DNA from: Deltaproteobacteria bacterium GWC2_55_46
GTDB taxonomy: Bacteria > Desulfobacterota > GWC2-55-46
Assembly (NCBI GenBank): GCA_001595385.3
Contig: LVEI03000001.1
Coordinates: forward strand, 1 to 64,000
Length of the DNA: 64,000 nt
Reading direction: 5' to 3'
Below the pieces are notes generated by a model that was not told where the DNA came from, made no database searches, and worked only from the letters and a program-made list of their open reading frames with translations. Numbering within the stretch: the first letter of the stretch is position 1; the number at the start of each line of letters is the position of its first letter. The position numbers and the translations under genes were made by a program. Shown piece by piece: positions 29,106 through 43,885 of the stretch.

Positions 29106-29759
29106 TCAGTTGTTCTGCTGGTAGAGCCCCTCAAAGTACTGGGGCTTTTGCTCCTCGAAGGAGAGGATAAGCTCAAAGGCTATATGGCGGGTGCTGGCGA
29201 ACTGCATGGAAAGGGCTACCGGGTCGCGAAGCCCGGCCTTCTGGTCGACCCACGCGAGGGGGCTGTTCTGTATCAGGCCGCTGAACTCGTTATTCAGGAC
29301 CGGCCTTGCGGCCGCCTTGGGGATGGTATTGGATACAGCGAAGAGTATCTCCTTCCTGCTTATGCGCACGCCCATCTCTTCGTCTATTATGACGAGCTTG
29401 GTCAACCACTGCTCGAAGCTGACCTTCCTGAACGGGATGCCGGGGTTTCTTCCGAGCCGCGGCACGTACCTGTTCTTGTCCTTGTTCGTGGGGGAATAGA
29501 GCGCGAGCCCGCTCATCGGCAGGGCGAGCTTGGGGTCGTAATCTGGCGAGTTGTCGTTGAACTGGATCTCCATGCCGAGCTTGTCGAGCAACGACCCGGT
29601 CCCGTCCACGTCTTCGACTATGGCCCTTACAGCGACAGCCATCCTCTGGCACTCGCCGTCAAAGCCCATGTCATAGGCCTGTGTAGACTTCGCAAGGAAT
29701 TGGAGGAGCGACTTTAAATACGCGTCAAGTTCTTCTGTTGTCCTGGTCTTGTTTGTCAT
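29106..29759 (-). CDS. Conserved-looking protein of unknown function, 217 aa
   Basis: The protein has no signal peptide or membrane segment. An N-terminal helical half (TTEELDAYLKSLLQFLAKST; GFDGECQRMAVAVRAIVEDV) is followed by a mixed half (VSFEQWLTKLVIIDEEMGVR; SRKEILFAVSNTIPKAAARP; SMQFASTRHIAFELILSFEE). I do not recognise the family. It is well formed, with codon use like its neighbours, and is transcribed divergently from dut across the repeat tract. Confidence 0.7.
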   Translation of the reverse strand: MTNKTRTTEELDAYLKSLLQFLAKSTQAYDMGFDGECQRMAVAVRAIVEDVDGTGSLLDKLGMEIQFNDNSPDYDPKLALPMSGLALYSPTNKDKNRYVPRLGRNPGIPFRKVSFEQWLTKLVIIDEEMGVRISRKEILFAVSNTIPKAAARPVLNNEFSGLIQNSPLAWVDQKAGLRDPVALSMQFASTRHIAFELILSFEEQKPQYFEGLYQQNN

Positions 29760-29841
29760 AGTGCCGGTATTTTATATCATCAGGGCCCTGAATACAAATA
29801 TTTTTGCGGTCATACGGCGAGTTATGTTAAAAAGCATCAAT

Positions 29842-29972
29842 CGGAGGAGATCAATCGGAGGAGATCGGCGGAGGAGATCAATCGGAGGAGATCGGCGGAG
29901 GAGATCGGCGGAGGAGATCGGCGGAGGAGATCGGCGGAGGAGATCGGCGGAGGAGATCGGCGGAGGAGATCT
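29842..29972 (+). repeat. Ten tandem Shine-Dalgarno-containing repeats before dut
   Basis: Ten perfect copies of CGGAGGAGATC start at 29842, 29856, 29869, 29883, 29896, 29909, 29922, 29935, 29948 and 29961. They are separated by GG (units of 13 bp) or AAT (units 1 and 3, 14 bp). The last copy places GGAGG about 6 bp before the ATG of dut at 29973, so it is the working ribosome site. The other nine are extra. Such perfect repeats slip easily, so copy number should vary between strains. Confidence 0.9.
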
Positions 29973-30413
29973 ATGGATAAGACGCGGCTTTTAGTGAAGG
30001 TAAGGCTCGTTACGCCTCAAGCCAGGGCGCCAGAAAAATCTCATGCCGGGGACGCGGGTTGGGACCTCTTCGCCTCTGGTGAGGCCGTAATAGCGCCCGG
30101 GGCGACAGGCATAATAAGGACCGGCATCGCCCTTGAGATACCTTCGGGCTGGTACGGACAGATAAAATCCAGGAGCGGCCTTGGCGCAAAGGGGCTTATA
30201 GTCACCGCCGGTGTCGTCGACTGCGGCTACAGGGGCGAGATATGCGTGGTCGTAATAAACGGCAACAAGGCCGGGGATGCCTTTGCTTTTAAGACCGGGG
30301 ACAAGATCGCGCAGATGGTATTCCTGCCTGTGCCTGACGTTGACGTAGAGCTTGTCCAGGACCTGAACGCCTCTTCAAGGGGCGCTAACGGCTTTGGCAG
30401 CACCGGGAGATAG
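29973..30413 (+). CDS. dut: dUTP diphosphatase
   Basis: The 146-residue trimeric dUTPase hydrolyses dUTP to dUMP and pyrophosphate. All five motifs are seen: GDAGWDLFA, KSRSGLGAKGL, TAGVVDCGYRGEICVVVIN, GDKIAQMVFLPV and the C-terminal arm RGANGFGSTGR. The ATG directly follows a tract of ten Shine-Dalgarno repeats, a very unusual leader. The gene is single and converges with the exporter operon, only 5 bp from its stop. Confidence 0.96.
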   Translation: MDKTRLLVKVRLVTPQARAPEKSHAGDAGWDLFASGEAVIAPGATGIIRTGIALEIPSGWYGQIKSRSGLGAKGLIVTAGVVDCGYRGEICVVVINGNKAGDAFAFKTGDKIAQMVFLPVPDVDVELVQDLNASSRGANGFGSTGR

Positions 30414-30418
30414 CAGTA

Positions 30419-31585
30419 TTATACCGTCCTCAAGGCATCGACTATCTTCATCTTCGATGCCCTGACCGCGGGCAGAAGGCCGCCTATAAGGCCCATGGCA
30501 AGGGCTATTGTTATAGATTCCAGCGCCGTCCCCAAGGTCAGGGTGAACGAGAAGGCCAGCTCGGCGAAGGTCTGGAAGTTGAGAGTCGATATCGTAAAGA
30601 ACTGAAGGAACGAGGCCAACAGGAGCCCTGCCGCCCCGCCGATAAGCCCTGTAAGGAGCGATTCCGCGAGGAAGGCCGCGAGTATGCTGGGCCTGCCGAA
30701 ACCTATGGCCCTTAAGGTGCCTATCTCGGAGACCCTGTTCGCTACAGCCGAGTACATGGTTATCATCGCCCCGATTATAGCCCCTGTAGAGAATATGGCC
30801 GTAAGGCCGGTGCCGAGTACCCGGAGAAAGGTGGATAATGCCTTGGACTGCTCGGCGTAAAATTCTGTTTCCCTCTTCGGCTCAAGCTTGAGCCTCGGGT
30901 CGCTTTCTATCCTTTTTGCCATCTCGTCCAATCTTCCGGGGTCAGCCATCTTAAGTACGACCGAGGTATATACAGGCCTCCTGAACGCCTGCATGAGAGA
31001 GTCGATGTCGCCCCATATCTCTGAAGAGAAGCCGGTTGCGCCGGCGTCAAAAAGGCCTACTACCTTCCAGTCCCTCATGGCGAACCTTATCGTCTCGCCG
31101 ACCCCGGCTCCCTTGAACCTTCTGGCAACGGATCTCCCGGCGGCTATCTCGTAGGTGCCGGGCCTTGGCATCCTGCCCTCTACGAGCCTTGCCTGGGGCT
31201 TAAGCGCCGCTGACATGGACGATATACCCCTCAGGACCACGTTTGAAGGCTTGTCGGTCCCCCGTTTGGGAAGCGAGATGAGGACGACTATCTCCTTTGC
31301 TGCCATCATCTTCCCCTCCGGGCCAGCGGCTATCCCATCCGTTGTCTCGATTATCGCGGCCTGCTCGCGGGTTATGCTGCTTTGCACCTCGGACGGGGCG
31401 CCTTTCCTCACAACGACCATGTTCTCAGGAGAGCCCGTCTCGACAAGGGTCCGCTCAAGGCCTTCCGCAAGCATCGTTATCGCCGCGAAGACGAAGACCA
31501 CGAGAGCCATGCCGCCAGCGGTGAGGGCGGTGGTGAGCTTTCTTGTCCAGAGCGACCGGTAGCTGTAGACGAGGGGGACCGGCAT
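30419..31585 (-). CDS. FtsX/MacB-type ABC transporter permease, second
   Basis: The 388-residue protein has one N-terminal helix (TALTAGGMALVVFVFAAITMLA), a large periplasmic MacB-PCD-like domain (about residues 45-240) and three C-terminal helices (FSTGAIIGAMITMYSAVA; EIGTLRAIGFGRPSILAAFLAES). That is the FtsX fold of type VII ABC systems. It starts one base after the stop of the first permease. With its partner it couples ATP hydrolysis in the cytoplasm to mechanical work on a periplasmic substrate. Confidence 0.9.
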   Translation of the reverse strand: MPVPLVYSYRSLWTRKLTTALTAGGMALVVFVFAAITMLAEGLERTLVETGSPENMVVVRKGAPSEVQSSITREQAAIIETTDGIAAGPEGKMMAAKEIVVLISLPKRGTDKPSNVVLRGISSMSAALKPQARLVEGRMPRPGTYEIAAGRSVARRFKGAGVGETIRFAMRDWKVVGLFDAGATGFSSEIWGDIDSLMQAFRRPVYTSVVLKMADPGRLDEMAKRIESDPRLKLEPKRETEFYAEQSKALSTFLRVLGTGLTAIFSTGAIIGAMITMYSAVANRVSEIGTLRAIGFGRPSILAAFLAESLLTGLIGGAAGLLLASFLQFFTISTLNFQTFAELAFSFTLTLGTALESITIALAMGLIGGLLPAVRASKMKIVDALRTV

Positions 31586-42498: not shown

Positions 42499-43701
42499 GT
42501 GGTCGAGAGGTTTATTGGTCTGGCGGGCCTTCTGGTCTTTGCTGGAATAGCGTGGGCCTTGTGCAGCGACAGGAGAGCCATAAGCTGGAGACTTGTCGCA
42601 TGGGGGGTAGGGCTACAGTTCCTTTTCGCCATCATCATTTTGAAGACTGGGCCGGGGCTGCTGGTATTTGATTTCGCCAGGGTGGTAATGACCGGCATAC
42701 TCAATTTTACCGACATCGGCTCGCGTTTCCTCTTCGGCAACCTCATAAGCGATTACAATATAGGGGCGATACTCGCCTTCAAGGTATTGCCCGTCATCAT
42801 ATTCGTATCATCGCTCATGTCGATCCTCTTTTATCTTGGCGTCATACAGGTGGTTGTAAGGGGGCTGTCATGGGTCATGGAAAGGACTATGAAGGCATCC
42901 GGGGCAGAGGCGCTGCTCTCTGCCATGTTCGTATTCATGGGCATAGAGGCGACGACAGGCGTGAAGGGCTACATACGCAGGATGACGCCTTCGGAGCTGT
43001 TTACTGCCATGGCCGCCTTCATGTCTACCATCGCCGGGAGCGTGATGGCCGTCTACGTTAGCTTCGGCGCGAGCGCGGGCCACCTGCTGGCGGCTTCTGT
43101 CATGAGCGCGCCTGCGGCGATACTTATATCAAAGCTCATATTGCCGGAATCGCGGAAAAAAGAAGTCCATGACGTTGAGGCGAAAGAGGCTTTAAAGAGC
43201 GTGGACGTGAACATAATCGAGGCCGCCGCAAACGGCGCCGCAGACGGCCTTAAGCTCGCGGCGACCATTGGCGCGATGCTCCTCGCCTTTGTCGCCCTTA
43301 TCGGGATGACGGACCACTTCCTCGGCTACCTGAATACCTCTTTCGAGGAGATATCCGGCTATCTCTTCATGCCTTTCGCCTTCCTCATGGGCGTACCGTG
43401 GGAGGACTGCACGAAGGTCGGCCAGCTCCTTGGCATAAAGGTGGTCTTCAACGAGTTCATATCGTACCAGAAGATGCAGGGCATGATAGCGAGCGGCGCG
43501 CTTCAACCCAGGTCTGTTGCCATAGCCACCTACGCCCTTTGCAGCTTCGCGAACTTCGGGTCGATAGCGATACTCATAGGCGGTATCGGGTCGATAGCCC
43601 CTGAGCGGAAGAAAGAGATAGCGAGGATGAGCTTGAAGGCCCTTGTCGCTGGCGTGCTGGCGAGTTTTATGACTGCGGCTATTGCGGGGCTGCTGCTGTG
43701 A
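42499..43701 (+). CDS. CNT-type (NupC-like) nucleoside transporter
   Basis: The 400-residue membrane protein starts at a GTG and has about ten hydrophobic helices. Family pattern: an N-terminal pair of helices, FLFGNLI, FKVLPVIIFVSSLMSILFYLG, ALLSAMFVFMGIEATTGV and FTAMAAFMSTIAGSVMAVYV. The usual GQ(T/S)E nucleoside motif is replaced by GIEATTGVKGY, one residue shorter, so the substrate may be unusual. It imports nucleosides with Na+ or H+. Its last codons and stop lie in the first copy of a 74-bp tandem repeat. Confidence 0.87.
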   Translation: MVERFIGLAGLLVFAGIAWALCSDRRAISWRLVAWGVGLQFLFAIIILKTGPGLLVFDFARVVMTGILNFTDIGSRFLFGNLISDYNIGAILAFKVLPVIIFVSSLMSILFYLGVIQVVVRGLSWVMERTMKASGAEALLSAMFVFMGIEATTGVKGYIRRMTPSELFTAMAAFMSTIAGSVMAVYVSFGASAGHLLAASVMSAPAAILISKLILPESRKKEVHDVEAKEALKSVDVNIIEAAANGAADGLKLAATIGAMLLAFVALIGMTDHFLGYLNTSFEEISGYLFMPFAFLMGVPWEDCTKVGQLLGIKVVFNEFISYQKMQGMIASGALQPRSVAIATYALCSFANFGSIAILIGGIGSIAPERKKEIARMSLKALVAGVLASFMTAAIAGLLL

Positions 43702-43837
43702 GACGGTTATTATTGTGAATACAGCACAGATTTATAATGGTGCGCATTGCGCACCCTACGCGACTGCTGCTGTGAGATGGTTACTATTGTGAATACAGCA
43801 CAGATTTATAATGGTGCGCACAGCGCACCCTACGCGA
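43690..43837 (+). repeat. 74-bp tandem duplication spanning the transporter stop
   Basis: Two copies of a 74-bp unit start at 43690 and 43764 and differ at only a few positions (for example GACGGTTATT/GATGGTTACT, and CATTGC/CACAGC inside the hairpin). The unit begins with the last three Leu codons and TGA of the transporter and ends TACGCGACTG. The second copy is noncoding. Confidence 0.85.
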
Positions 43838-43885
43838 CTGAATGGACAGGACTCTTTACAGTCGCGGGTGCGCTGTGCGCACCAT
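43811..43885. repeat. REP-like inverted repeat
   Basis: ATGGTGCGCACAGCGCACCC (43811-43830) and its exact reverse complement (43866-43885) face each other 35 bp apart, with CGCGACTG/CAGTCGCG pairing inside. Each arm is itself a small GTGCGC palindrome. A related hairpin GGTGGGC-TGT-GCCCACC follows at 43934-43950. The 43702-44011 gap contains nothing else recognisable. Confidence 0.75.

Follow-up and report, generated by a model that had tools for sequence, protein, structure and literature searches.

The window, a stretch of 64,000 nucleotides from Deltaproteobacteria bacterium GWC2_55_46, contains an intact dut gene on the forward strand (29973..30413). The gene encodes a trimeric-type dUTPase of 146 aa (Pfam PF00692, E 2.6e-30; PDB dUTPases, E ~1e-28), and it is present as a single copy in the genome. 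A divergent gene of 217 aa with no Pfam match lies upstream on the reverse strand (29106..29759); the congeners likewise have its 5' part upstream of dut. Downstream, an FtsX-type permease gene (30419-31585, reverse strand) is convergent with dut. With these two neighbours, dut appears to be monocistronic. The 217-aa protein is kept next to dut in the congeners, and might be a functional partner. A promoter-like block, TTTTGC - 15 nt - TATGTT, was predicted at 29802..29828 on the forward strand from the alignment of seven loci, in which the congener form is TTTTGC...TATGWT. It was missed by a sigma-70 consensus scan. The transcription start predicted from this block is at ~29834-29836.

Almost the whole predicted dut leader is filled by a tandem array of ten Shine-Dalgarno (SD) units (29839..29971, forward strand), which are arranged head-to-tail as found by direct reading, repeat search, and unit parsing. 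There are two unit types: A is AATCGGAGGAGATC (14 bp), and G is GGCGGAGGAGATC (13 bp). They are interspersed irregularly in the order AAGAGGGGGG, i.e. A A G A G G G G G G. The 11-bp core CGGAGGAGATC is identical in all ten copies, which start at 29842, 29856, 29869, 29883, 29896, 29909, 29922, 29935, 29948, and 29961 on the forward strand. With the AAT of unit 1 included, the array spans 29839 to 29971; a single T (29972) separates it from the dut ATG (29973). TRF reported 9.8 copies with a score of 214. Each unit contains two GGA motifs, 20 across the array, and ten GATC sites lie within it. The terminal copy (29961..29972, forward strand) is the working SD of dut, as its GGAGG (29962-29966) is 6 nt from the ATG and the single SD of four congeners aligns here. 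A preliminary description of this DNA had reported ten perfect cores of 11 bp, set in units of 13 or 14 bp, before dut, ending with its ribosome site. Both statements were borne out by pattern search, unit parsing, and the 6-nt spacing. A given 11-mer should turn up only ~0.03 times in 64 kb, counting both strands, and one copy of the core occurs elsewhere in the 2.79-Mb genome; chance is therefore excluded for the array, and the observation is confirmed as real.

No ATG, GTG, TTG, or CTG was found within the tract, and no in-frame start upstream of 29973. The array is therefore a non-coding leader, and its upstream copies cannot initiate translation. An in-frame N-terminal extension of dut was considered and rejected, because there is no upstream in-frame start and the frame is broken by the 13-bp units. 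In another phase, a longer frame crosses the array (29749 or 29824 to 29994). It is probably untranslated, since the promoter-like -10 either contains its starts or lies downstream of them.

Tandem repeats are error-prone, and it is conceivable that the array is an assembly or sequencing artefact with a lower true copy number. The failure to find a 16S gene is in line with this, as the assembly may be incomplete at repeats or masked. However, the two unit types are interspersed irregularly, the array lies within a contiguous 2.59-Mb contig with clean boundaries, and artefacts collapse repeats more often than they create them. An artefact is very unlikely. The tract might also be an element acting at the DNA level on transcription, either an iterated operator or a cluster of GATC methylation sites. 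The ten GATC sites and the regular 13-14 bp repeat directly downstream of the promoter-like block are consistent with such a role. However, the spacing does not match the 10.5-bp helical repeat, there are no inverted repeats in the array, and the unit aligns with the SD rather than with the promoter. No Dam-type (D12 class) methyltransferase was found in the genome, and Dam methylation at the array was rejected on this ground. A DNA-level element is extremely improbable.

Distribution and age of the array

The repeat content of the genome was surveyed in a 464-kb sample, consisting of the window and twenty 20-kb stretches. No other short-unit array in this sample came near the dut array in copy number. 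With the exception of one degenerate 9-bp repeat, the dut array was alone in having at least four copies of a unit of at least 5 bp. A pattern search of the 2.79-Mb genome identified one further copy of the core, which stands alone in apparent coding sequence and is unrelated. The genome does not carry the same repeat at many start codons, as would be seen in a TAACTGA-type network. Two other tandem repeats in the genome have units of 60 bp in 3.2 copies (L093, 2098-2288) and of 76 bp in 2.7 copies (L100, 19620-19824). In addition, two direct copies of 74 bp, 94% alike, are located at 43690-43840 of the window. Each contains an inverted GTGCGCA...GCGCAC-like element and CCCTACGCGA, suggestive of a small repeat of mobile or intergenic type.

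The comparison within the genus covered six genomes, including this one, with one genome per species. Full-length dut was found in five of the six. Four of the five other genomes have an intact dut with one SD, the same divergent gene, and the conserved TTTTGC-15 nt-TATGWT block. Their leader is ~25-28 nt from the -10 to the ATG. In the alignment, the genome carrying the array, and no other, has a clean insertion that separates the -10 region from the SD. The remaining congener (G001, C36:120136-120499; L016/L017) has only two partial, diverged dut pieces, which suggests that its dut is decaying or has been replaced. Across a wider set, trimeric dut was found in 16 of 59 relatives, with a patchy distribution within the family; the others may have a different dUTP-removing enzyme or none.

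None of 58 relatives had a match to the dut tract; triple GGAGGA arrays at other places in their genomes were sparse and imperfect. Since four congeners have a single SD and none of the 58 relatives has a match, the array arose after this species split from the sampled congeners. The ten cores are identical despite a protein divergence of ~30% from the congeners, which indicates that the expansion is recent. Sequence comparison thus shows that the dut SD expanded recently and in this lineage only. The preliminary description had proposed comparing copy number among relatives, a constant number in all of them, together with no effect on reporter output, being taken to count against its reading. 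The relatives have one SD and no array, so the array is new in this lineage, and the constancy test does not apply in the form in which it was worded.

Genomes of the phylum and viral contigs were searched for similar arrangements. Three GGAGG followed by a 6-nt spacer and a start codon, the only spacing searched, were present in 56 of 395 genomes of the phylum. Of these matches, 30 loci were examined; nearly all were in long open frames, and at none of them was a gene preceded by a perfect array of SDs. A pattern of three AGGAGG plus ATG, with the spacings that it allows, was found in 18 stretches among 2.9 million viral contigs, mostly in coding repeats rich in acidic residues (Glu/Asp) or Gly. 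The one viral match to three units of the dut array (L121) was rejected as an SD array, because it lies in a long open frame of Gly-Gly-Asp-Leu repeats and is coding. In an Oscillospiraceae contig (L018, 495-517, reverse strand), two units are matched exactly, which was also judged a coincidence: the 23 bp are read as EEIGGGDL codons in a membrane sensor-like gene. The E-E-I-G-G-G-D-L stretch presumably resembles HAMP-type motifs.

Ribosome pairing and the effect of copy number

No 16S gene of this genome was identified with the Rfam family or the 3'-end pattern, so the 16S end of the congeners was used for pairing. The assembly has no detectable 16S despite 100% completeness, and the gene is either absent from it or masked. 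The 3' end of the congener 16S is GGCTGGATCACCTCCTTTCT, and GGAGGAGATC is complementary to GATCACCTCC with one mismatch. With this end, the duplex between a unit and the anti-SD was predicted at -13.4 to -15.7 kcal/mol; the single dut SDs of the congeners gave -10.2 to -12.8 kcal/mol with the same 16S ends. Near the start codon, steric constraints may restrict how far the GATC part can pair in some bacteria, cf. bS21 in E. coli (PMC13009471).

The leader was computed to fold more weakly than shuffled sequences (z +1.9). Accessible single-stranded RNA upstream of the SD, a feature of ribosome standby sites, is thus predicted for dut. Weak folding also bears on whether the GGA motifs serve an RNA-binding regulator such as CsrA, the array acting in dut control or in titration of the regulator in a CsrB/RsmZ-like manner. 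The genome encodes CsrA (PF02599, E 1.3e-24), and the array offers 20 GGA motifs. However, any array of SDs will contain GGA, the A-N-GGA core is missing from the units, and the predicted folding places no GGA in the loop of a stable hairpin. A link between dut and Csr is not known. This role is extremely unlikely.

Leaders with 1 to 14 units were modelled by folding. The predicted accessibility of the terminal SD was 0.81 at one or two copies and ~0.5 at three to five, and was flat at 0.62-0.67 from six copies. Occupancy was also modelled with hard rods. With an exclusion of two units, occupancy of the terminal site fell by less than 15% at low occupancy and hardly shifted beyond ~4 copies. 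Over the model as a whole, the loss mostly stayed below 15% when occupancy was low or moderate, or when the start codon stabilised binding. A copy-number-dependent loss of 1.4- to 2-fold was obtained only with saturated, equal sites and no start-codon boost. Together, the models predict a nearly flat output from ~5 to 14 copies, and they do not predict that dUTPase depends steeply on copy number.

These results bear on two opposite roles of the upstream units. As decoys, they would hold 30S unproductively, block the terminal SD sterically, and lower dUTPase. The 13-14 nt unit spacing is well within the 30S footprint, extra copies make the terminal SD slightly more paired in the folding model, and the loss at saturating binding would be such a brake. 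However, the loss is mostly small under the other modelled conditions, and a braking role is quite improbable. As a selected standby or loading array, the upstream units would pass 30S to the terminal site, and slippage in copy number would tune dUTPase. The ten strong and accessible anti-SD sites predicted here are in favour of loading. Moreover, ribosomes are able to slide after binding to standby modules at a distance (PMC3936740), and Moraxella uspA2 is tuned by the repeat length of its 5' leader (PMC4679880; PMC7302503). However, translation in E. coli was alike for leaders that carried between two and four standby modules, with no extra gain from added modules (PMC3936740), one SD suffices in four congeners, and the models saturate by ~4-5 copies. 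Standby is also unlikely to limit a leader that has as little structure as that of dut. A selected loading array is therefore unlikely, although it deserves more weight than a brake. The preliminary description had raised the same idea of extra anti-SD sites for standby or loading. Docking of 30S by strong, accessible complements is consistent with the predictions, but the tuning part is not, as the models are flat beyond ~5 copies.

The preliminary description had gone further and proposed a heritable switch on mutagenesis. A related reading is a heritable rheostat, in which slippage in a ribosome-loading ladder would set dUTPase through copy number, and with it uracil in DNA and the mutation rate. 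Loss of dut activity in M. smegmatis does raise the mutation rate 7- to 15-fold (PMC5519681). The dut locus also shares with phase-variable loci a slippage-prone tandem repeat in or near a gene. However, gain or loss of whole units leaves the promoter, the terminal SD, the 6-nt spacing, and the reading frame unaltered, whereas in phase-variable loci a copy change alters the frame, the promoter spacing, or the spacing from SD to start. Given the flat model output from ~5 to 14 copies as well, the switch found no support, and the rheostat is highly improbable.

Origin of the array and comparison with known systems

The most probable explanation, which we hold with slightly better than even confidence, is that the array consists of slippage-born, near-neutral extra docking sites for 30S, whose influence on dut translation is weak and saturates. 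If the two ends of the array are joined on paper into a hypothetical leader with one copy (...GCATCAATCGGAGGAGATCTATGG...), ATCAAT and ATCTAT (now 29969-29974) are 14 bp apart, which is the length of unit A. ATCAAT is still found at 29836..29841 on the forward strand, as the upstream flank and the start of unit 1 by sequence reading and repeat families. Replication slippage in one lineage may have duplicated the 14-bp segment with the single dut SD. The first duplication was perhaps seeded by the ATCAAT...ATCTAT microhomology and would yield AATCGGAGGAGATC. The variant 13-bp unit would then have arisen once (AAT -> GG), and further unit gain would have led to ten copies, with the promoter and the start codon otherwise unchanged.

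The dut mRNA would thereby acquire a leader of ~140 nt, which is weakly structured, purine-rich, and has ten anti-SD complements. Initiation would occur at the terminal SD only. If the nine other units are active, they may dock 30S in a non-productive, standby-like manner, with a small and quickly saturating effect. Such an array might be tolerated because the working SD and its spacing are never disturbed by whole-unit changes. Three points speak against near-neutrality. The occupancy model allows a 1.4- to 2-fold copy-dependent change at saturating 30S occupancy; identical cores would also be expected had selection kept them; and the placement of the array exactly on the SD, together with the rarity of such arrays, could hint at function. 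The array is a natural experiment on whether upstream anti-SD sites load, block, or ignore ribosomes. If output follows copy number, repeat instability would be linked to dUTPase and the mutation rate.

No precedent for a natural tandem, double, or multiple SD array was found in the accessible literature, where searches were partly swamped by other meanings of "SD". Tandem repeats in leaders are already known, but the search gave no account of one whose every unit is a full, strong SD. The closest systems are the AGAT(n) repeat of Moraxella catarrhalis uspA2 and the G(n) repeat of uspA1, which are also slippage-prone and located between promoter and start codon. Their expression varies with repeat length, the effects are at the mRNA level, and strain variation is documented (PMC4679880, PMC7302503). 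However, the Moraxella units contain no SD, whereas the dut unit is an SD and the gene is a housekeeping gene. The TAACTGA repeats of Beggiatoaceae are likewise directly upstream of start codons, including those of essential genes, and a translational role was proposed (PMC4679880). These 7-mers are abundant genome-wide, have little SD character, and mostly take the place of the SD; the dut array is a single locus of strong SDs. Ribosome standby sites resemble the dut leader in that single-stranded RNA further upstream can make contact with the 30S platform ahead of initiation (PMC3936740). Standby modules are defined by accessibility near structure, whereas the dut array is defined by repeated anti-SD pairing, as predicted here. 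Finally, in the engineered ribosome binding site of Egbert and Klavins (2012), as it is cited in PMC3749727, a repeat near the SD also serves as a tuning or mutational handle. By that account, the engineered repeat is in the spacer between SD and start, and its length alters the spacing, whereas the spacing in the dut array is fixed at 6 nt.
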